Numbered from the stretch's first letter, positions 27,839-42,706 are shown. The stretch is 49,496 bases of DNA from an uncultured Veillonellaceae bacterium (GCA_902773295.1 CACYDT010000074.1:1-49496); one strand, 5' to 3'. Made by a program: numbers and translations. The notes: generated by a model from the sequence alone, not told the origin.

Positions 27839-30286
27839 TCACTCGCTATGCGAAAACGTCCTGGTATGCTCGTATGCCAACCGCAAGAAATACTCCTTCA
27901 ACGAATCCGAAAGGACTTCGCTATGACATTGATCCCTTGTATAGATATGGCAAGAGCATGACCCCATATCCACGGTCCCATCCGGACGCGTCACGGCATC
28001 CGTTTCCAGGCGAAACTCATGCTCCTGTGTGCGAATCCCCAATTTATAAGTCTGCCCCGGGAAAATAGAATTACTGATAACGTACTCCCGCCTGTTCCCG
28101 CCAAAAACTTCTGGCAGGTTTGCATCCATATCCTTCGCCTCCGGAAGCACGCCCAATTCCTTTGCCACAATCGGATATAAATCCATGCCACTGACCAGCT
28201 CATCCACCATCCCTTTTTCCGGGATACCCGCCCCACGCATCATGAAGGCAATCCCACATTCCTCTTCATTAAGGAAATACGTATCTTTCCCGTGGATTAC
28301 AGTCCCATGGTCAGAATAAGCATTGACAACGTACTCATCCTCCCGATAATTTTTCTCAATATACTCAAACAGCCTTCCCAGCTCTTGATCCATCCTCTGA
28401 ATCATGTAAAGATTGTTCTTTTGATAAACTTCATTTCCTTCCAGATGGATTGCATGCGTACCAGAAGGGTTCAACGTCTCTGCCAGAGCAAATTCTTTCC
28501 ACTCCATAGCGACTTGGGATTGCAGTGCCGCAGGCGTGTTCCATGGAAATGGGTGCGGATCGCTGACATGCACGAAGAGATAGTTATCACATTCATGAAA
28601 TGCATCCAAATGATCCATGACTCTTTTCGTCCCCTCATGCATCAATCGTTGCAGATATGGGCTGACAATCAAGCGCGAAAAGCCTCTCAAGACGCCATTG
28701 TACAGGCCACGTGCATCACCTGTCAGATTTACGCAATAATACCCTTTTTCCTTGGCAATTTCTGAAAGTGTCTTGTATCGCTTGTCCAAGGACACAAACA
28801 CCTTATCGTGAAAAATTTGGGAACGATGCATGTGCAGCCCCGTTTCCATCGTTGCCAAAGACGGGTATGTATATTCCGCAACAGAATATGCATCATTAAA
28901 AATGACCCCTTTGGAGAAGAACCTCACCAAATTGGGAACATGCACAAATCCTTCTGCTTTCATCTGGCTCCAAGGAAGACTATCCAAAAGCAAATTGAGC
29001 ACAAGCCGCTTCCTTTGATGGCTGTGTTCCAGGGACAACGGCTCTGCCGCAACAAATTTCCTGGCCGATGACATTTTCGTGTCCTCTGTCAACCGAACAA
29101 AACGGAATTCATTTTTCCCCAAGGTAATGCAACTTTCTGCTGAACGATCCTCTATATGGATTTTCTGTTCCTTTTCACTGCCTGCCACTGCCACAATACA
29201 TGCCGTTCCCTCAGAAACATGGAAAAACAGCTGCTTTGCATCCCGGACCTTCATAATATCGAAGGGGAAATTGCTGTACGCATATGCATTATCGACTCTC
29301 TGCTTAGCGAAAACCTCAAGCCGATCCGCCATTACCCCAAAAAAACTGCTTGGATTATACGCTCCACACCAATATCGATACTCCTCCCCGGAGTTCCGCT
29401 GATGCACAAGATACTCCCCACAGCTAGAACGGAAGCCCCCTCCCATCTCGCCAGTCTCCAGATAAAAAGGAGCCGTCTGCACATTTATGGATGTGATTGG
29501 CAACACATGAGACACCTGTTGCAAGTCAGCAGATCTTACCGTCTCTCCGGAGGCACATGCTATTTGAAATACATATCCTCCTTCCGGCACAGATACACTT
29601 TTCGTGAAAATTTGGCAGAGTCTTTCCAGCAGCCCCCATATTCCCGGATGTGTCTTCCGCAAACGATACGCCTCTTGCGCATGGAAAAACGCTTCTTCAT
29701 GCCGCCCCTGCTGAAAGAACCATTCCCCACACAAGAAGTGATATCCTGCCCGATCATCCCCTTTTTCCTGCAGTTCCTTCAGCAGGCGTTCCGTCTCCTT
29801 CGGCCAGACATTTCTCTTCACAGCATCCTTCAGAATGCGCAAAACCTCTTGCGTGCGCTGCATATCCTTCCATTCACGGTAGATCTCCTCCAGCGTTCCA
29901 TCAGGCATCACGTCCATTATCATTGCCCGATACAATTCCCATTCCATCTTCCCCGACCGGTTTATCATAAACCGGTTTCCCTGAATATCAAAAACTACTG
30001 CATAGTCATCCGTCACAGGAAACACTTGCACCGGAAGATGATCATATTCCGGAAGAAGGCAACCTCCGTCGCTAAAAATACGCTCCAAATTTCTTTGATA
30101 ATTCCGGCGCATCATAGCTTCGTTCGGAATGTACAAGAACTGCACAAGAAAATCATATATCTCATGCAGGGGTTTTTCATTATATCCCAGCATCAACCAT
30201 TGTGTTCCCAGCAAAAGCTTCTCCACCCCATTAGGATTATCCTGGAACGCCCGGATGAATTCGATGCCTTTCTCATACAGCAACAT
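27839..30286 (-). CDS. Cytoplasmic alkaline-phosphatase-superfamily protein, paralogue A
   Basis: 815 residues, with no signal peptide or membrane helix visible. Residues 1-230 are helical with a TPR-like stretch (180-215), and 300-420 look beta-rich. From about 425 there is an alkaline-phosphatase/sulfatase-superfamily domain: metal Asp D435 (LLLDSL), T473 in EYTYPSLATMETG at the nucleophile position, D576 and H578 (SDPH), and D659-H660 (YSDHG). The nucleophile context lacks the CxPSR/SxPSR formylglycine motif, so it is probably not a true sulfatase; phosphodiesterase, phosphotransferase or phosphatase activity is likelier. It is clearly paralogous to 35828-37930, but longer at the N-terminus. 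The ATG at 30286 follows GGGGGAGG. Base composition is lower in GC than neighbouring housekeeping genes. Confidence 0.8.
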   Translation of the reverse strand: MLLYEKGIEFIRAFQDNPNGVEKLLLGTQWLMLGYNEKPLHEIYDFLVQFLYIPNEAMMRRNYQRNLERIFSDGGCLLPEYDHLPVQVFPVTDDYAVVFDIQGNRFMINRSGKMEWELYRAMIMDVMPDGTLEEIYREWKDMQRTQEVLRILKDAVKRNVWPKETERLLKELQEKGDDRAGYHFLCGEWFFQQGRHEEAFFHAQEAYRLRKTHPGIWGLLERLCQIFTKSVSVPEGGYVFQIACASGETVRSADLQQVSHVLPITSINVQTAPFYLETGEMGGGFRSSCGEYLVHQRNSGEEYRYWCGAYNPSSFFGVMADRLEVFAKQRVDNAYAYSNFPFDIMKVRDAKQLFFHVSEGTACIVAVAGSEKEQKIHIEDRSAESCITLGKNEFRFVRLTEDTKMSSARKFVAAEPLSLEHSHQRKRLVLNLLLDSLPWSQMKAEGFVHVPNLVRFFSKGVIFNDAYSVAEYTYPSLATMETGLHMHRSQIFHDKVFVSLDKRYKTLSEIAKEKGYYCVNLTGDARGLYNGVLRGFSRLIVSPYLQRLMHEGTKRVMDHLDAFHECDNYLFVHVSDPHPFPWNTPAALQSQVAMEWKEFALAETLNPSGTHAIHLEGNEVYQKNNLYMIQRMDQELGRLFEYIEKNYREDEYVVNAYSDHGTVIHGKDTYFLNEEECGIAFMMRGAGIPEKGMVDELVSGMDLYPIVAKELGVLPEAKDMDANLPEVFGGNRREYVISNSIFPGQTYKLGIRTQEHEFRLETDAVTRPDGTVDMGSCSCHIYTRDQCHSEVLSDSLKEYFLRLAYEHTRTFSHSE

Positions 30287-35827: not shown

Positions 35828-37930
35828 TCAATCGTGTTCCAATGGCCACACATGGCCTTCGTTGTTGAAGGACTTCGTATGCTCACGAGCTATTTGAAGA
35901 AAATACTGGAGCAAAGTGTCATCCTTCACCTCTCTATGAGATCCATCCCGCAAGAGAATAGAAGTATTGACCTCTCTGAGATCTACCGTTCCATCAAATT
36001 CCACCGGCCGGACTGACTGCAAATGAAATTCATGCTCTTGGGTCCGGATACACAACTGGTACTCCTTCCCCGGGAAAATCGAATTGCTGATGACATATTC
36101 CCGTTCCTTTCCTCCAAAAATCCTGGGCAAATTTCCATCCACCCAATCCCCGACCTCAAATCCCACGACATGACCGAGCATGGGATAGATATCCAGGGAG
36201 CTGACCAACTCCTCTACAAACCCTGCCTGGGGAACCCCTGCTCCCCGCATCATCAATGCGGCTCCACCTTGCTTGTCACTGAATGTATAGGAAAAATCGT
36301 CATAAACCGATGTCCCATGGTCGGAATACAGCGTCACAAGATACTCATCCTCACGGTAGTGGCTCTCCAGATAATCAAACAAGACCCCTAAACTGCGATC
36401 CGAATTCCTGATCCCAGTCAGATTCGCATGCTCATAAAGAGGGACATGGGAAAGCCTGACACTTGCCTCCTTCGACATTGCACCGGGCAATAGATCCTTC
36501 AGTGAAAGATGCGTCTGCGTGGCAACAGGAACCTGATAATCACTCGCACGCCAAGGATGGGTGTCCGCTGCATGAACCATCAAAAACTGGTCGCATTCAC
36601 CAAATGCTTCCAGTTGCCGAATCACACGTTCCACACCTTCATGCACATGAGAAGAATAAGGAGCAACAAGCAAACGGTCATATCCTCTGGTCACCCCGTT
36701 GTAAACACCACAGCCATTCCCCATAAGGCTGGCACAGTAATACCCCAAATCCTTCATGCACTCAGATATGGTTTTGTATTTCTCATCCAGAACAACGCTG
36801 GCTGTTTCATTGAAAATCTGCGAATGTTGGAGATGCATGCCCGTTTCTATTGCCGCAAAGGCAGGATAGGTATATTCGGCAATAGAAAAGTGTTGATTGA
36901 ATATAATGCCTTTCTTGAAAAATCCAATAATATTGGGCACATCCAAAAAATTCCGCTCTTTTTCCTCTCCCCAACTCAATGCATCCAACAGAATGTTCAG
37001 CACCAATTTTTTCCGCTTTGGGCTGTGCCTCAAGAAAATCGGCTCTCCTATTACGAACGGCTGTTCCGAAGAAAATATCGTATTCCCCTGCAAACGGAAA
37101 AAACTGTACATCCCCTTTCCCAAGCGCCATTTCCCCTGTGCATCCGGTGCCTCAATCGAAACAATCTGTTTCGATTCTGTTCCCGCAACGGGAAGAATCA
37201 TATCTCCTTCGGCTTTTATGGCCACCTTGCCGGGTACCGACCTCGATTTCATAAAATCAAAGACAGTCCCCGCTCCACAGTGCCCCACCAGGCTCTCATT
37301 TCCTTTGTTTTCCTCCAGCAAGCAAGTTTTGCCTTCCAAATCCTCCTCTTCCGCATACGCCCCCACCCAATATGCATATGGCAACGATTCCTGCCTTCCC
37401 GGAACAAAGCCGCAAATATATTCACAGAAAGAAATACTCGGACGGATTTCCAGCCCATTCCCGCCCCAAAAAGCCTCATGAAGATGAAAAGGAGCATAAT
37501 GACCCACATCAAACGCCCGCGTGAGAACAGCAAGATATTCCTCCAAACGATCCCCCGGAATCTGGAATTGCAACGGCACTCCATAGTGATGCTTCAACAA
37601 CCCTTGGAAAAAAACGGTTTCCAAGGAGTTTCCCAGCATTTCATGGCATGTTACCAGCAGTTTCCATATCTCTGCGCTGGCCTTCCTTTTTCTATAGGCT
37701 TTTCGGATATATTCCAATGCCACATGATAATTCTTGTGAGCCATTGCATATTTTGCATAAAAGACATCAAACTTTTCCGACCACGGATAGAGACGATGGT
37801 ACTCAATCAATTCTTCCAAATACGCATCATCATACCGCCCGAGCTCAACCCCGCGCAAAAGATTCTCAAAATGGATCCTGCCTTTTGAACTTTGCTCAAA
37901 AAAACTGCCCGTCATTTGTTCTTCGTTCAT
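35828..37930 (-). CDS. Cytoplasmic alkaline-phosphatase-superfamily protein, paralogue B
   Basis: 700 residues, with no signal peptide or membrane segment. Residues 20-100 are TPR-like helices (YAKYAMAHKNYHVALEYIRK), 130-300 are beta-rich, and the superfamily domain starts near 305. Key residues are D316 (ILLDAL), T354 in AEYTYPAFAAIETG, D456 and H458 (ADTHPW), and D537-H538 (YSDHG), matching paralogue A one for one. The C-terminal blocks NLPRIFGGKEREYVISNSIF and IRTQEHEFHL are nearly the same in both. It overlaps the GT41 gene by four bases (ATGA), so the two are translationally coupled and probably work together. GAGAGGGGG precedes the ATG at 37930. The activity is unknown. Confidence 0.82.
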   Translation of the reverse strand: MNEEQMTGSFFEQSSKGRIHFENLLRGVELGRYDDAYLEELIEYHRLYPWSEKFDVFYAKYAMAHKNYHVALEYIRKAYRKRKASAEIWKLLVTCHEMLGNSLETVFFQGLLKHHYGVPLQFQIPGDRLEEYLAVLTRAFDVGHYAPFHLHEAFWGGNGLEIRPSISFCEYICGFVPGRQESLPYAYWVGAYAEEEDLEGKTCLLEENKGNESLVGHCGAGTVFDFMKSRSVPGKVAIKAEGDMILPVAGTESKQIVSIEAPDAQGKWRLGKGMYSFFRLQGNTIFSSEQPFVIGEPIFLRHSPKRKKLVLNILLDALSWGEEKERNFLDVPNIIGFFKKGIIFNQHFSIAEYTYPAFAAIETGMHLQHSQIFNETASVVLDEKYKTISECMKDLGYYCASLMGNGCGVYNGVTRGYDRLLVAPYSSHVHEGVERVIRQLEAFGECDQFLMVHAADTHPWRASDYQVPVATQTHLSLKDLLPGAMSKEASVRLSHVPLYEHANLTGIRNSDRSLGVLFDYLESHYREDEYLVTLYSDHGTSVYDDFSYTFSDKQGGAALMMRGAGVPQAGFVEELVSSLDIYPMLGHVVGFEVGDWVDGNLPRIFGGKEREYVISNSIFPGKEYQLCIRTQEHEFHLQSVRPVEFDGTVDLREVNTSILLRDGSHREVKDDTLLQYFLQIAREHTKSFNNEGHVWPLEHD

Positions 37931-39513
37931 CTGAATCCCCCTCTCGCCGCATAGGCTTTGATCCACAGCCGTTGGTAAAGCGCTTCCACATCCTTGGCAT
38001 AGGCCTCTGCATCCATAAGAGCAGACTGCTGCATCCTTCTTCGTAAATCCCCGTGCAGCATCCCGATGAGTTCCCTGTCCCCTGCCATCGCCACCGCCTT
38101 CCCTATATACTCATCATAAGACCCTGCTGCCATTTCCTCAAGCCCCAAGGTCTTCAGCACGCCATACCCGAAACGCGTTCCCAGGCGTTTCCCGAACAGG
38201 CTGACCACCGGCACCCCCATGTAAAGAGCCTCGCATGTCGTAACAAATCCCACATAGGGATAAGTATCCAGCGCAATGTCAAGATCTGCGTACTCCTTCA
38301 GGTACTCCCGCGAAAATCCCCGAAACTCGACCCTGGAAGCATCCAAGCCCAGCCGCCGGAACCGTTCCAGCGTATAGCCGATCCCCTCTTCGCTGTCAAA
38401 AAGCCGATGCTTCAGGACAAGACGGCTTTGGGGCACCTCCTGCAGAATCTTTGCCCATGCCAAAAGAATCTCATCCGTGACTTTGCTGAAATTGTTGAAG
38501 CAGCCAAATGTAATATAGCCGTTCTTTGCACATGGAGGAGCCACCGGTTCCGGCATATTGCGGAACGGGGTATAGCAAATCATGCTCCGCAGATCATGGA
38601 GCACCGTTTCCACAAAATACCCCCGGGGATTCTCCGCCTCCCCGCAACAATTCCTGTCTGCCCAAAAATATTCAATCGATTCCAGACCCGTACTATTCAC
38701 ATCCCCCAAGCCGGAAATCTGCACCGTCGCCGGATGGCTGGCCATCACGGCAAGATGATTGTCGCTGGTATGCCCGGAAAGGTCAAACAGGATGTCTATC
38801 TCATCCTGCCTGACCAATTCCGCAATTTCTTCATCTGAATTATTCGAAATTTCCCTCCACACTTCCACCTCTGCCCGCATCTTTTCCGTCATCCAATCTC
38901 CCCGGTTGCCTGCATAACAATACAGACAAAAGGCCGCCCTGTCATGTTCCCGCAAAAGCGCCCAAAGGAAGCAGGCCAATGGATGCTCCCGGAAATCACT
39001 GGACAAGTAGCCCACTCGAAGCCGTTCATGATGATAAAAGCGCAAGGGATAGGAAACCATATCCTCCACCAACAAGCGATACTCCCGATAGAGACACTGA
39101 TATTCCTCGCTGCTGTAATCCGAAACGGAATTAGCCGCAAACAAGGCATTGCTGCTCTCCCTGCGTTTTTTGGGCAGGGACGGTTCCCATCGAGAAGATT
39201 GCCGGAACGCCTCCACGGCCTTCCGGGCATTCCCCAGCATATGATAAGCTGCCCCAAGCAAGCTCCATGCATCCGCAGCGACCTTACGTTCCTCGATATC
39301 GGATACGTCCACGCTCCCCAGACAGTCCTGCAAGACACGGATTTCCGACAGGTACTGCCTCCGCTCGCGATAAACATACGCCAGCAGGAGATCCGCCCTG
39401 GGCCAACGGCAGACACCATCGCGCACCGCCAGGATTTTTTCCAGAGCCGCATCATATTCTTTTTTCCGAAAGGACAGGAGAGCTTCCCCGTACAGCCCAA
39501 GGATGTCCACCAT
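37927..39513 (-). CDS. TPR-containing GT41 (O-GlcNAc transferase-like) glycosyltransferase
   Basis: 528 residues. The N-terminal ~120 residues contain TPR-like helices (SLLGAAYHMLGNARKAVEAF). The remainder matches the SPINDLY/OGT catalytic region: RVGYLSSDFREHPLACFLWA, DILFDLSGHTSDNHLAVMASHPATVQIS, GCFNNFSKVTDEILLAWAKIL, and DIALDTYPYVGFVTTCEALYMGVPVV. Such enzymes put sugars on Ser/Thr of proteins in the cytoplasm, for example on flagellins or adhesins. The target here is unknown. GGAGGGGG precedes the ATG at 39513. It is coupled to paralogue B downstream and follows csaB by 24 bases. Confidence 0.88.
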   Translation of the reverse strand: MVDILGLYGEALLSFRKKEYDAALEKILAVRDGVCRWPRADLLLAYVYRERRQYLSEIRVLQDCLGSVDVSDIEERKVAADAWSLLGAAYHMLGNARKAVEAFRQSSRWEPSLPKKRRESSNALFAANSVSDYSSEEYQCLYREYRLLVEDMVSYPLRFYHHERLRVGYLSSDFREHPLACFLWALLREHDRAAFCLYCYAGNRGDWMTEKMRAEVEVWREISNNSDEEIAELVRQDEIDILFDLSGHTSDNHLAVMASHPATVQISGLGDVNSTGLESIEYFWADRNCCGEAENPRGYFVETVLHDLRSMICYTPFRNMPEPVAPPCAKNGYITFGCFNNFSKVTDEILLAWAKILQEVPQSRLVLKHRLFDSEEGIGYTLERFRRLGLDASRVEFRGFSREYLKEYADLDIALDTYPYVGFVTTCEALYMGVPVVSLFGKRLGTRFGYGVLKTLGLEEMAAGSYDEYIGKAVAMAGDRELIGMLHGDLRRRMQQSALMDAEAYAKDVEALYQRLWIKAYAARGGFR

Positions 39514-39537: not shown

Positions 39538-40635
39538 TCAACGGTTACGCCCCATCGCCTCCATAGCCAGTTCCCCATTGCGGACAGCCAGCCGCCTGAG
39601 CTCGGAGAGCAAGGGAGCATTCTTCTTCCGGAAGGATTCCTTGCCGTTCCACTTATGCCGGATCTCCGCCATAAGTTCTTCCACCGTGATATCCTGCAAA
39701 TTTCCCACCACCCGATCGCCAATGGAATCCATAAACCTCCCAATCTTCGGATCATAGGACACACCAATCATGGGAACTCCCATGACCCCTGCGAAAATCA
39801 GGGCATGGAGGCGTATGCTCACCATGAGGTCCATGCAGCCCACAAGGGAAAGGAGCTCGCTCGTCGTATACTCGTCCTCCAGCACCGTACAGCTCTCCTG
39901 TGCCATGGCCGCAATCGCTTCCGCCGCCTTCACATCCTCCGGATACTGCATGGGAAGGAACACCACTCTGGCATCCAGTTCCCGTACAATCGCATCCACG
40001 GCTCCCGCCAGGACTTCCTTGTAGTGCATCCACCCGCGCCACTCCCGGACGGAAATGCCCACCGTAGGCTTTGCTCCATCCGCATGGTACTTTTTCAGGA
40101 TAGAATGCCCCGCCTCGCGCCCCACGGGATTGATAGCAAGCACAGGGTCTGCCGTGCACTCGATATGAGGCGAATGGATATGCAGGCTCTCCAGCTCCTC
40201 CAGAGAACCGTGATCCCGCACTGTGATGACATCCACATGGTTGCCCAGCCAGCTCATCATGCGACGCGCAAAGCTGCCATAGATGGGGCCGATTCCCTGG
40301 GCATAGAGCATCACCGGCGTCCCCAGCACATGAGCCCAAAAGATGATCCCCATATAATAATAGAGGCTCCGCCCGCTCGTGACGTTCTGCAGAAGGCTGC
40401 CGCCACCGCTGATCAGGAGATCCGCCTTCCGCAGGACGCAGAGAATCCCCGGCATATCCAGCCAAGAAACCGCCTCCACCCCATGACGTCTTCTCGTGTC
40501 CTCCGGATCCGACGAAATGACCGTGATATTCAATTTTGGGTCAAGCTCGGACAGAACCTCCAGCATGGCGGCGAGCATTGCCTCGTCGCCGCCATTCCTT
40601 GAGCCGTAATATCCGGAAACCACAAGATTATGCAT
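39538..40635 (-). CDS. csaB: Polysaccharide pyruvyl transferase CsaB
   Basis: A 365-residue member of the pyruvyl transferase family, which adds ketal pyruvate to cell-wall polymers. Typical segments are VVSGYYGSRNGGDEAML, DLLISGGGSLLQNVTS, VMLYAQGIGPI, and SIRLHALIFAGVMGVP. In Bacillus, pyruvylated secondary polymer anchors SLH-domain proteins. Negativicutes instead tether SLH proteins to polyamine-decorated peptidoglycan, so the polymer modified here is an open question. It follows the DUF5693 gene by 13 bases, an association seen in other Firmicutes. Confidence 0.92.
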   Translation of the reverse strand: MHNLVVSGYYGSRNGGDEAMLAAMLEVLSELDPKLNITVISSDPEDTRRRHGVEAVSWLDMPGILCVLRKADLLISGGGSLLQNVTSGRSLYYYMGIIFWAHVLGTPVMLYAQGIGPIYGSFARRMMSWLGNHVDVITVRDHGSLEELESLHIHSPHIECTADPVLAINPVGREAGHSILKKYHADGAKPTVGISVREWRGWMHYKEVLAGAVDAIVRELDARVVFLPMQYPEDVKAAEAIAAMAQESCTVLEDEYTTSELLSLVGCMDLMVSIRLHALIFAGVMGVPMIGVSYDPKIGRFMDSIGDRVVGNLQDITVEELMAEIRHKWNGKESFRKKNAPLLSELRRLAVRNGELAMEAMGRNR

Positions 40636-40648
40636 GAATCAAACTCCT

Positions 40649-42706
40649 TCAGTTCCCCATCCTGCTCTTTGCCGCAGAAAGAAGGGTCTGCCAGAACTGA
40701 ACCAGCGCCATGGCAATCGCACCGACTCCCGCTCCCAGCACAATGCCTCCGATGCCGCGCATGAAAGACATATAGACCGGCGTCCGCATGTGGGCAAAGG
40801 TCTCCACCATGGAACCCTGGCCGATGGTCGCCACAATGACCAACAGGAAGAACACCATCGTCGGCCACTTGCGCTGCCATGCCATGGCCGCCAGCATGAA
40901 GGCCGGATGGCCAATCAAAAGCTCCTTTGAGCGCGGGCGCGCATAAAAGAGCTGCTCCAAAAAGGCGCGGAACCGGAGCTCCGCAGAGGATACGGGCATT
41001 CCGAGGTTATGCCCGCTCCGGGCGATGAACACAATGCCCGCCAGAAGCACGCAACCCATGCCAATGAGGGTCTTCACTTTCACGGGCGTATCGAGAATCC
41101 GGCGAAGCTGATCTGCCATCCCTGTCGTGTCATCGAATTTCCCATCAAAGATATCAAAACGCTGCAGGAAAGCGAGCGCCACCAGAACCAACGGCAGGAC
41201 AAAGGTCAGCTTGATGCCGCGGTAAATGTTGAACTCCAGGAAGTATTCCGTATCCGAAAGAGCACCCGAAAGATATGCCGCACCTACATAGGACATCGCG
41301 CCTGCCACGAAAAGCGCAAGCGCAGCCGTCACCATGAGCTTCGGCAAGGAAAGCCTCACCTCATTCCGGAAGGAGCGCACACGATCCAGCTGCCAGATAA
41401 CCGCCAAAGCCGGAAAGAGATTCGCACCGGCAAAAGCCGCCAAAAGCCGAAGCTTGCTCCCTGCGCCCATAAGCACCGGAACCGCCGCCAGCACAGCGAT
41501 CGCCGCAAACAAAAGATACTGTTGCTTCGGCCTGGCATTGAGCTTCGGAAAAACCAGAGACAGATACAGCACCCCTGCGGCAACAGCCCCCACCATCACA
41601 AGCGCCCGCAAGCACCGATCGGGATAATACTCCCGGAATGCAGAGGCAGGTCCAAGCGTGAACCCGCGTTCCTTCAAGATTTCCGCAGTTGCCCGGAAAT
41701 ACTTCATATTCGTTTCCAAGAGGCTCATATCAGGGGATGGACTCTCAATGATGCGCAGAAGGTCAATGCGGATATTGCGTTCCTGGTCAGTATTCGCCCA
41801 GCGCTCCACCGCAGTATCCATCTTGATCTTTGCCATCTCGTCCTTCGGGATGCTGTAGAGTCTCGCCACATGATCATAGCCGATGCCCTTGGCGATCTCA
41901 TTCATCCCTTCCTGCTGATAGAATTGCAGCTGGGACGGTGCCTCGATGAGCCCGAGCGTCATATCTCTCGCTTTCATCTCATCAATGGTCGCCTGCAGGG
42001 ACTTTGTCGCCCCCAGGGACTGCTTCCCGGCAAAAACCACCTCGGAAACCCGGATGCCTTCCAGCCGATCGAACACAGCTTTGACATCCGCTTCCGTGCA
42101 TCCCTCGTAATTGCTGGGACGAGCGATGACATAGAAGCCTGCCGCATTCACGGCCTTCATCTCATCCGTGGGCAAACCGAGGTTCATCTTCAGGAAGGTC
42201 TCATAATGCGCCTTGACAGCCAGAACCTCCCTGCCCCCCAGGTCATGGGAGACCACCCGCTCCTTGCCGAGCCGCCGCAGAAGATCCTCCTTGACTTCCC
42301 GGAAGACCCGGGAATCCTCTCCCGTCACATAGACCTCCGTGCCCTTGACATTCCCTGCCGCCACAAAATCGCGCCAGACAGGATCCGTCAGCGCTCCGCT
42401 CCGGTAATTGGCCAGAAGCTCACTGCCGGGCACAGCCGATGCCTTGCCATTCTCATTGAATTTCTTGAATGTCGTCTCATAAACGGCCAAAGAGGTAAAA
42501 CCGGCTTCCTTCGCCTGGGCCAGAACTTCCTGCACCGGCAGTCCTTCGCGGTCTGCCAGTTCCTGAAGCCCCTCGTAATCAATGGCCATATCCACCTGAT
42601 GGTTCTGCACCTCTACCTCATGGCGCTGGAAGCAGATTGCCAATGACGCGATCAAGCCAAGGACAATAAAGGCAATGAGCCACCGATTGTATTTGAAACC
42701 CTTCAT
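40649..42706 (-). CDS. DUF5693-family polytopic membrane protein
   Basis: 685 residues. One N-terminal membrane helix (about 8-25) is followed by an extracytoplasmic domain of about 350 residues (for example QNHQVDMAIDYEGLQELADR and VIARPSNYEGCTEADVKAVF). About eight further hydrophobic segments fill the C-terminal half. It belongs to the DUF5693 family, with no known activity. Its constant partner csaB suggests a part in transport or display of a pyruvylated wall polymer; this is inference. Confidence 0.85.
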   Translation of the reverse strand: MKGFKYNRWLIAFIVLGLIASLAICFQRHEVEVQNHQVDMAIDYEGLQELADREGLPVQEVLAQAKEAGFTSLAVYETTFKKFNENGKASAVPGSELLANYRSGALTDPVWRDFVAAGNVKGTEVYVTGEDSRVFREVKEDLLRRLGKERVVSHDLGGREVLAVKAHYETFLKMNLGLPTDEMKAVNAAGFYVIARPSNYEGCTEADVKAVFDRLEGIRVSEVVFAGKQSLGATKSLQATIDEMKARDMTLGLIEAPSQLQFYQQEGMNEIAKGIGYDHVARLYSIPKDEMAKIKMDTAVERWANTDQERNIRIDLLRIIESPSPDMSLLETNMKYFRATAEILKERGFTLGPASAFREYYPDRCLRALVMVGAVAAGVLYLSLVFPKLNARPKQQYLLFAAIAVLAAVPVLMGAGSKLRLLAAFAGANLFPALAVIWQLDRVRSFRNEVRLSLPKLMVTAALALFVAGAMSYVGAAYLSGALSDTEYFLEFNIYRGIKLTFVLPLVLVALAFLQRFDIFDGKFDDTTGMADQLRRILDTPVKVKTLIGMGCVLLAGIVFIARSGHNLGMPVSSAELRFRAFLEQLFYARPRSKELLIGHPAFMLAAMAWQRKWPTMVFFLLVIVATIGQGSMVETFAHMRTPVYMSFMRGIGGIVLGAGVGAIAMALVQFWQTLLSAAKSRMGN

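Follow-up and report, generated by a model that had tools for sequence, protein, structure and literature searches.

A contig of 49,496 nucleotides from an uncultured Veillonellaceae bacterium (CACYDT010000074.1; this whole stretch is referred to as the window) carries two overlapping genes, one encoding a glycosyltransferase of family GT41 and the other a member of the alkaline phosphatase superfamily. We propose, at a probability of about 0.6, that the latter protein is a soluble cytoplasmic transferase that moves phosphonate or phosphocholine, activated by cytidine mono- or diphosphate (CMP, CDP), onto protein glycans that are probably made by GT41 enzymes. Headgroup attachment to protein-linked sugars is proposed because genes of this family adjoin phosphonate- and choline-activating genes. 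The family is otherwise unnamed and is here called TPRAP; its members combine TPR helices and a beta domain with a domain of the alkaline phosphatase superfamily.

The TPRAP protein encoded beside the GT41 gene matches the Sulfatase profile (PF00884) with 57.1 bits against a cut-off of 25, and has weak Pfam TPR matches at residues 58-101. An AlphaFold2 model built with 23 natural homologues (pLDDT 86.4, pTM 0.90) consists of TPR-like helices (12-140), a beta domain (~148-300) and the alkaline-phosphatase-superfamily domain (~305-690). An earlier note on this DNA had described TPR-like N-terminal helices in both proteins of the pair and no signal peptide on the phosphatase-superfamily protein. 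Both observations hold: weak TPR matches occur in the two proteins (in the GT41 protein TPR_1 and TPR_2, under their own cut-offs), and a hydropathy scan of TPRAP (Kyte-Doolittle, 19-residue window) finds no hydrophobic N-terminus, signal peptide or membrane segment. Because the scan peaks at only 1.15 and the N-terminus is not hydrophobic, the protein looks soluble.

In fold comparisons, where rows less than one Z unit apart are to be read as tied and a common fold does not show function, the matches of TPRAP span Z 21-26 over 261-370 aligned residues (top Z 25.7 over 307 residues). The closest among the matches listed are to the periplasmic domain of YejM/PbgA (Z 25-26 over 307-326 residues), with further matches to S1 sulfatases (Z 22-24) and NPPs (Z 21-22); LtaS, EptA and MCR are not among the best 50 fold matches listed (VIA), which does not count against a relationship. 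The beta domain has no Foldseek match at E <= 0.001, and on its own gives a best VIA Z of 7.2, a weak match of jelly-roll or cupin-like kind.

An alignment of 69 non-identical TPRAP homologues, with which sets of 46 and 23 sequences closely agree, contains ten invariant residues, namely D316, E352, T354, D447, H458, D511, D537, H538, R562 and D580. The putative nucleophile, Thr354, present in all 69, lies in an E-x-T-x-P motif and aligns with the formylglycine cysteine of choline sulfatase and S1_8A sulfatase; the C/S-x-P-x-R formylglycine motif is found in none of them. With a threonine in place of that cysteine, the chemistry usual for sulfatases and phosphonate monoester hydrolases is excluded. 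Fold, nucleophile and Asp/His metal ligands together assign TPRAP, as far as can be judged from sequence and model, to the alkaline phosphatase superfamily, and D316/T354/D537/H538 match the Glu/Thr/Asp/His set of EptA (Glu240/Thr280/Asp452/His453 in NmEptA; PMC10525099) with Asp replacing Glu. The earlier note had allowed that the domain might turn out to be a known enzyme; profiles, Thr354 and hydropathy indicate that it is not a phosphopentomutase and not a sulfatase of the exported or formylglycine kind. Formylglycine sulfatase was ruled out on the invariant threonine and the predicted cytoplasmic location, phosphopentomutase and iPGM on having no such match in Pfam or NCBIfam, and LicD (PF04991) on having no match at E up to 1.

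The link between TPRAP and phosphonate or choline genes lies outside the window and is not part of the earlier note, which also passed over the second TPRAP, csaB and the beta domain. The same genome (G000) encodes seven TPRAPs, five of which stand in tandem on a different contig (C106, 48774-61394) with a nucleotidyltransferase and an iron alcohol dehydrogenase inside the array; a phosphoenolpyruvate mutase (PepM), whose N-terminal domain is CTP_transf_like, and a phosphonopyruvate decarboxylase (Ppd) follow within 5 kb (Table 1). PepM is the enzyme that makes the C-P bond. With a PepM carrying EDKxxxxxNS, a Ppd and a nucleotidyltransferase, C106 appears to hold a genuine Pnt cluster, and the contig also carries two flagellin genes and several genes of families GT41 and GT2. 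No PhnW exceeds its profile cut-off in this genome, and the best NCBIfam match of the alcohol dehydrogenase is the phosphonate-specific model PsrA (148.7, below the cut-off of 423.7). Because PhnW is missing above cut-off, the predicted product is hydroxyethylphosphonate (HEP), which would be activated to CMP-HEP by analogy with Fom1 (activity described in PMC6697681); aminoethylphosphonate is disfavoured as headgroup here, the alcohol dehydrogenase being present. Directly before PepM, with a 4-bp overlap, lies a gene for a radical SAM protein (62391-63650) that may tailor the phosphonate or the glycan.

Among 189 Selenomonadaceae genomes, with PepM counted over cut-off, TPRAP and PepM are each present in 42: 30 genomes have both, 12 TPRAP alone, 12 PepM alone and 135 neither (Fisher p 7e-16, uncorrected for kinship). 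Of the 30 genomes that have both, 26 carry a PepM no more than 4 kb from a TPRAP, and the other four have the two on separate contigs. In Selenomonas artemidis, noxia, massiliensis, felix and sp. F0473, three to six TPRAPs are arrayed with nucleotidyltransferase, PepM, methyltransferase(s), PhnW and Ppd, some of these named-Selenomonas loci ending at contig ends. One or two S-adenosylmethionine-dependent methyltransferases between PepM and PhnW (L056 5254-6681 and relatives) suggest a methylated aminoethylphosphonate in those Selenomonas. In G065 (L072 9022-13181) the stop of the TPRAP gene shares 4 bases with the start of the PepM gene, whose product is a fusion with a LicC-like nucleotidyltransferase in place of the cytidylyltransferase domain. 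Internal stops or frameshifts interrupt three Selenomonas copies (G010:C1:1464307-1466292, G082:C1:289621-294020 and G088:C1:2282222-2284327), which are possibly pseudogenes or reflect phase variation within arrays. Rather than occurring throughout the Negativicutes, TPRAP is confined to a subset of the Selenomonadaceae plus one distant homologue in another family of Bacillota (G596).

In PepM-negative genomes TPRAP often adjoins licC-, licA- or licB-like genes (L049, L070, L071, L073) or, at other loci such as L050, a nucleotidyltransferase-aminotransferase fusion. The divergent G596 homologue (L069), which retains the full catalytic set, adjoins a choline-kinase-like gene (licA), a LicC-like gene and a BCCT transporter. 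Because lic-linked and phosphonate-linked TPRAPs are interspersed in the tree, the data suggest that their common logic is a nucleotide-activated headgroup rather than any single one. The constant partner is the phosphonate pathway, marked by PepM, or a licA/B/C-like choline cassette and not GT41; given these partners, a hydroxyethyl- or aminoethylphosphonate or phosphocholine substituent is more likely than the phosphoglycerol or phosphoethanolamine mentioned in the earlier note.

LicD is the transferase usually expected after LicC or PntC. It was undetected in the window's own genome (88% complete), in 18 of the 30 genomes with both PepM and TPRAP (several of them complete, and including 12 of the 13 Selenomonas with PepM), and in G016 and G184, which have licA/C-like genes beside TPRAP; no alternative transferase candidate was found in these LicD-undetected genomes. 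In three genomes, LicD open frames near TPRAP are in two pieces (L070 6161-7066, L072 15512-16410, L077 7901-8597), as if decaying where TPRAP is present or interrupted by assembly frameshifts.

In the window the GT41 and TPRAP genes are joined by an ATGA overlap (TPRAP ATG 37930-37928, GT41 TGA 37929-37927), which bears out the four-base overlap, the positions and the strand reported earlier, and Shine-Dalgarno-like G-runs precede both starts (GGAGGGGGATTGCAATG for GT41, GAGAGGGGGATTCAGATG for TPRAP). The GT41 protein matches Glyco_transf_41 (PF13844) with 122.8 bits against a cut-off of 25, and its residues 73-519 align with SPINDLY at E 3e-70, the NNxxK segment included; profile and catalytic Rossmann segments point to membership of the GT41 class. 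Its nearest solved relatives, SPINDLY (7y4i) and 5djs, comprise O-fucosyl (SPY) as well as O-GlcNAc enzymes, and it differs from the OGT/SPINDLY enzymes by its short TPR and by the overlap with a TPRAP gene. A strict GT41-TPRAP pairing as a conserved unit was rejected, direct coupling being seen only in the window and in G021, while a looser association (GT41 within 10 kb of TPRAP, counted by hand from coordinates) exists in ~17 of the 42 genomes. In G021 a single open frame of 1205 residues comprises GT41 (52-486) and TPRAP (565-1205). The case for a clean gene fusion is weakened by the lower GC3 of the linker and by an internal ATG that follows an SD-like AAGGGG, and these may be two co-translated genes. 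Because the TPRAPs of the two pairs fall in different clades of the tree, the pairing probably arose twice. The earlier suggestion of a phospho-decorated, protein-linked glycan in the cytoplasm is thereby supported in part, namely by the glycosylation islands with GT41 and the G021 open frame, but not by strict GT41 coupling, which is rare.

For the steps that we infer, i.e. the donor, the covalent intermediate at Thr354, the acceptor sugar on a GT41-made glycan and the choice of acceptor, we propose the following course. The cytidylyltransferase would make a CMP-phosphonate, namely CMP-HEP in this organism and CMP-aminoethylphosphonate, or else CDP-choline, in relatives. Thr354, metal-held via D316, D537 and H538, would attack the activated phosphorus so that CMP leaves and a covalent phosphono-threonine forms, after which the headgroup would be handed to a hydroxyl of a sugar in a protein-linked glycan that GT41 had started. 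The acceptors may be flagellin and/or surface (SLH) proteins, picked by the TPR and beta domains. TPRAP would then be a cytosolic, nucleotide-donor equivalent of the extracytoplasmic, phospholipid-using EptA and PptA, and would stand in for LicD.

Several points weigh against this proposal, which is drawn from sequence, predicted structure and gene context. We know of no nucleotide-dependent transferase of the alkaline phosphatase fold, and among the 69 TPRAPs no invariant residue corresponds to the distal second-metal His of EptA. The acceptor assignment comes from the context of glycosylation and flagellin islands. Twelve genomes have TPRAP without PepM, the Fisher p value for their co-occurrence is inflated by genome relatedness, and several TPRAP loci, both loci of the window included, have no nucleotidyltransferase nearby. 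LicD and TPRAP occur together in some genomes, sometimes adjacent (G185, G211), and G596 has a LicD elsewhere in its genome, so that replacement of LicD by TPRAP is not universal. Enzymes of this superfamily also switch readily between hydrolase and transferase activity, which makes an editing or catabolic diesterase possible. The main rival is a cytoplasmic phosphodiesterase or phosphonate-monoester hydrolase (PMH) whose task would be to remove or edit headgroups or to cut the CMP/CDP donors. The closest solved sequences and folds (S1 sulfatases, choline sulfatase, PMHs and NPPs) agree with such an activity, as does the cutting of nucleotide diesters by NPPs with a Thr nucleophile, but the Cys motif of sulfatases and PMHs is not present, TPRAPs stand among biosynthetic genes and often alternate with them in tandem arrays of three to six copies, and no other transferase candidate was found where LicD is undetected; we regard a hydrolase as unlikely.

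Two further alternatives concern the acceptor. The occurrence of TPRAPs beside flagellin, motAB or cheRB without an immediate GT41 (L051, L046), and the action of PptA on pilin and of EptC on FlgG (PMC10525099), would fit a transfer of the headgroup directly to Ser/Thr of flagellin or another protein, independent of GT41; this is slightly less probable than hydrolysis, given that GT41 overlaps or shares a frame with TPRAP in two genomes and is close to it in others. The pair in the window might also serve a secondary cell-wall polymer as partner of CsaB instead of proteins, since it lies directly downstream of csaB and Selenomonas TPRAP/Ppd arrays likewise adjoin csaB-DUF5693. GT41 enzymes act on proteins, however, and the five-TPRAP array and other TPRAPs are in flagellin islands away from csaB, which leaves the polymer the least probable of these options.

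In the window, 24 bases separate the csaB stop from the start of the GT41 gene, and the two are likely to share a transcript. Beside TPRAP arrays of Selenomonas (L056, L057, L075), too, csaB is paired with DUF5693. At one of these loci, in a Selenomonas without PepM (G084), a single TPRAP adjoins csaB-DUF5693 in a neighbourhood as in the window (L075 3728-10259), and is probably the remnant of a phosphonate cluster. The second TPRAP of the window lies downstream of ftsEX-M23-S41 genes, has ~145 additional N-terminal residues of no recognised kind and is most closely related to a TPRAP in L041 (G031).

Table 1. Genes of the window and of contig C106 of the same genome.
Feature	Position	Strand	Evidence
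TPRAP, 700 aa, predicted headgroup (phosphono/phosphocholine) transferase, nucleophile Thr354	window 35828-37930	minus	Pfam, AlphaFold2, alignments
GT41 protein O-glycosyltransferase, 528 aa, short TPR N-terminus	window 37927-39513	minus	Pfam, SPINDLY alignment
csaB, polysaccharide pyruvyl transferase, directly upstream of GT41	window 39538-40635	minus	TIGR03609 268.1 bits, cut-off 213.1
DUF5693 membrane protein, upstream of csaB	window 40649-42706	minus	Pfam
Second TPRAP paralogue, longer N-terminus	window 27839-30286 (first ATG 30286; open frame to 30412)	minus	
LicC/PntC-like nucleotidyltransferase, within TPRAP array	C106 50928-51668		
Iron alcohol dehydrogenase, within TPRAP array	C106 51665-52807		
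Cytidylyltransferase (CyTase)-PepM fusion, motif EDKVGLKKNS	C106 63647-64942		TIGR02320 406 bits, over cut-off
Ppd	C106 64960-66081		TIGR03297 466 bits, over cut-off

The context of TPRAP resembles the known Pnt and Lic pathways (PepM-Ppd-AEPT-PntC and LicA-LicB-LicC-LicD; PMC6697681) in that equal headgroup-making and cytidylyl-activating genes are clustered with it, i.e. PepM with EDKxxxxxNS, Ppd, PhnW or the iron alcohol dehydrogenase, a PntC/LicC-like nucleotidyltransferase and licA/B/C-like sets; the difference is that TPRAP occupies the position of the final transferase. With EptA, EptC and PptA, of which the latter two modify flagellar or pilin proteins, it shares the superfamily, the Thr nucleophile and the acidic and Asp-His metal ligands (PMC10525099), but those enzymes are membrane-anchored, extracytoplasmic and use phospholipid donors, whereas TPRAP is soluble, TPR-bearing and CMP/CDP-linked. 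In sequence and fold the catalytic domain is best matched by S1 sulfatases and PMHs (PF00884), from which TPRAP is set apart by its invariant Thr, the missing C-x-P-x-R and its biosynthetic context. A search of the available papers on phosphonate with Selenomonas or flagellin, on CMP-aminoethylphosphonate transferases and on LicD with flagellin yielded no earlier description, nor a match for a TPR-bearing transferase of this fold that works in the cytoplasm from a nucleotide donor and is partnered by GT41. The type of cluster and the superfamily are already known, and there is a substantial chance that the enzyme class is new. The fuller claim is more tentative, and we hold it at slightly under even odds: a new soluble, cytoplasmic, TPR-bearing class of the alkaline phosphatase fold, which would use CMP-phosphonate or CDP-choline donors on GT41-initiated O-glycans of flagellin and surface proteins before export, replace LicD and, through arrays of paralogues, have several acceptor specificities.

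Most bacterial phosphonate capacity is thought to serve the tailoring of the cell surface, and activation by CMP is known, whereas the enzyme that moves phosphonate from CMP onto a macromolecule is an acknowledged gap, tentatively ascribed to a LicD-like protein (Rice 2019, PMC6697681). In Prochlorococcus, phosphonates are found in the protein fraction and have been proposed to reside on O-glycoproteins (Acker 2022, PMC8931226). TPRAP is a concrete, soluble and easily expressed candidate for this step, in bacteria that often have no other known enzyme for it, and offers a defined catalytic residue for mutation together with assayable acceptors (flagellin and GT41 products). If the proposal is true, TPRAP would be the cytoplasmic, nucleotide-donor counterpart of the EptA/PptA transferases.

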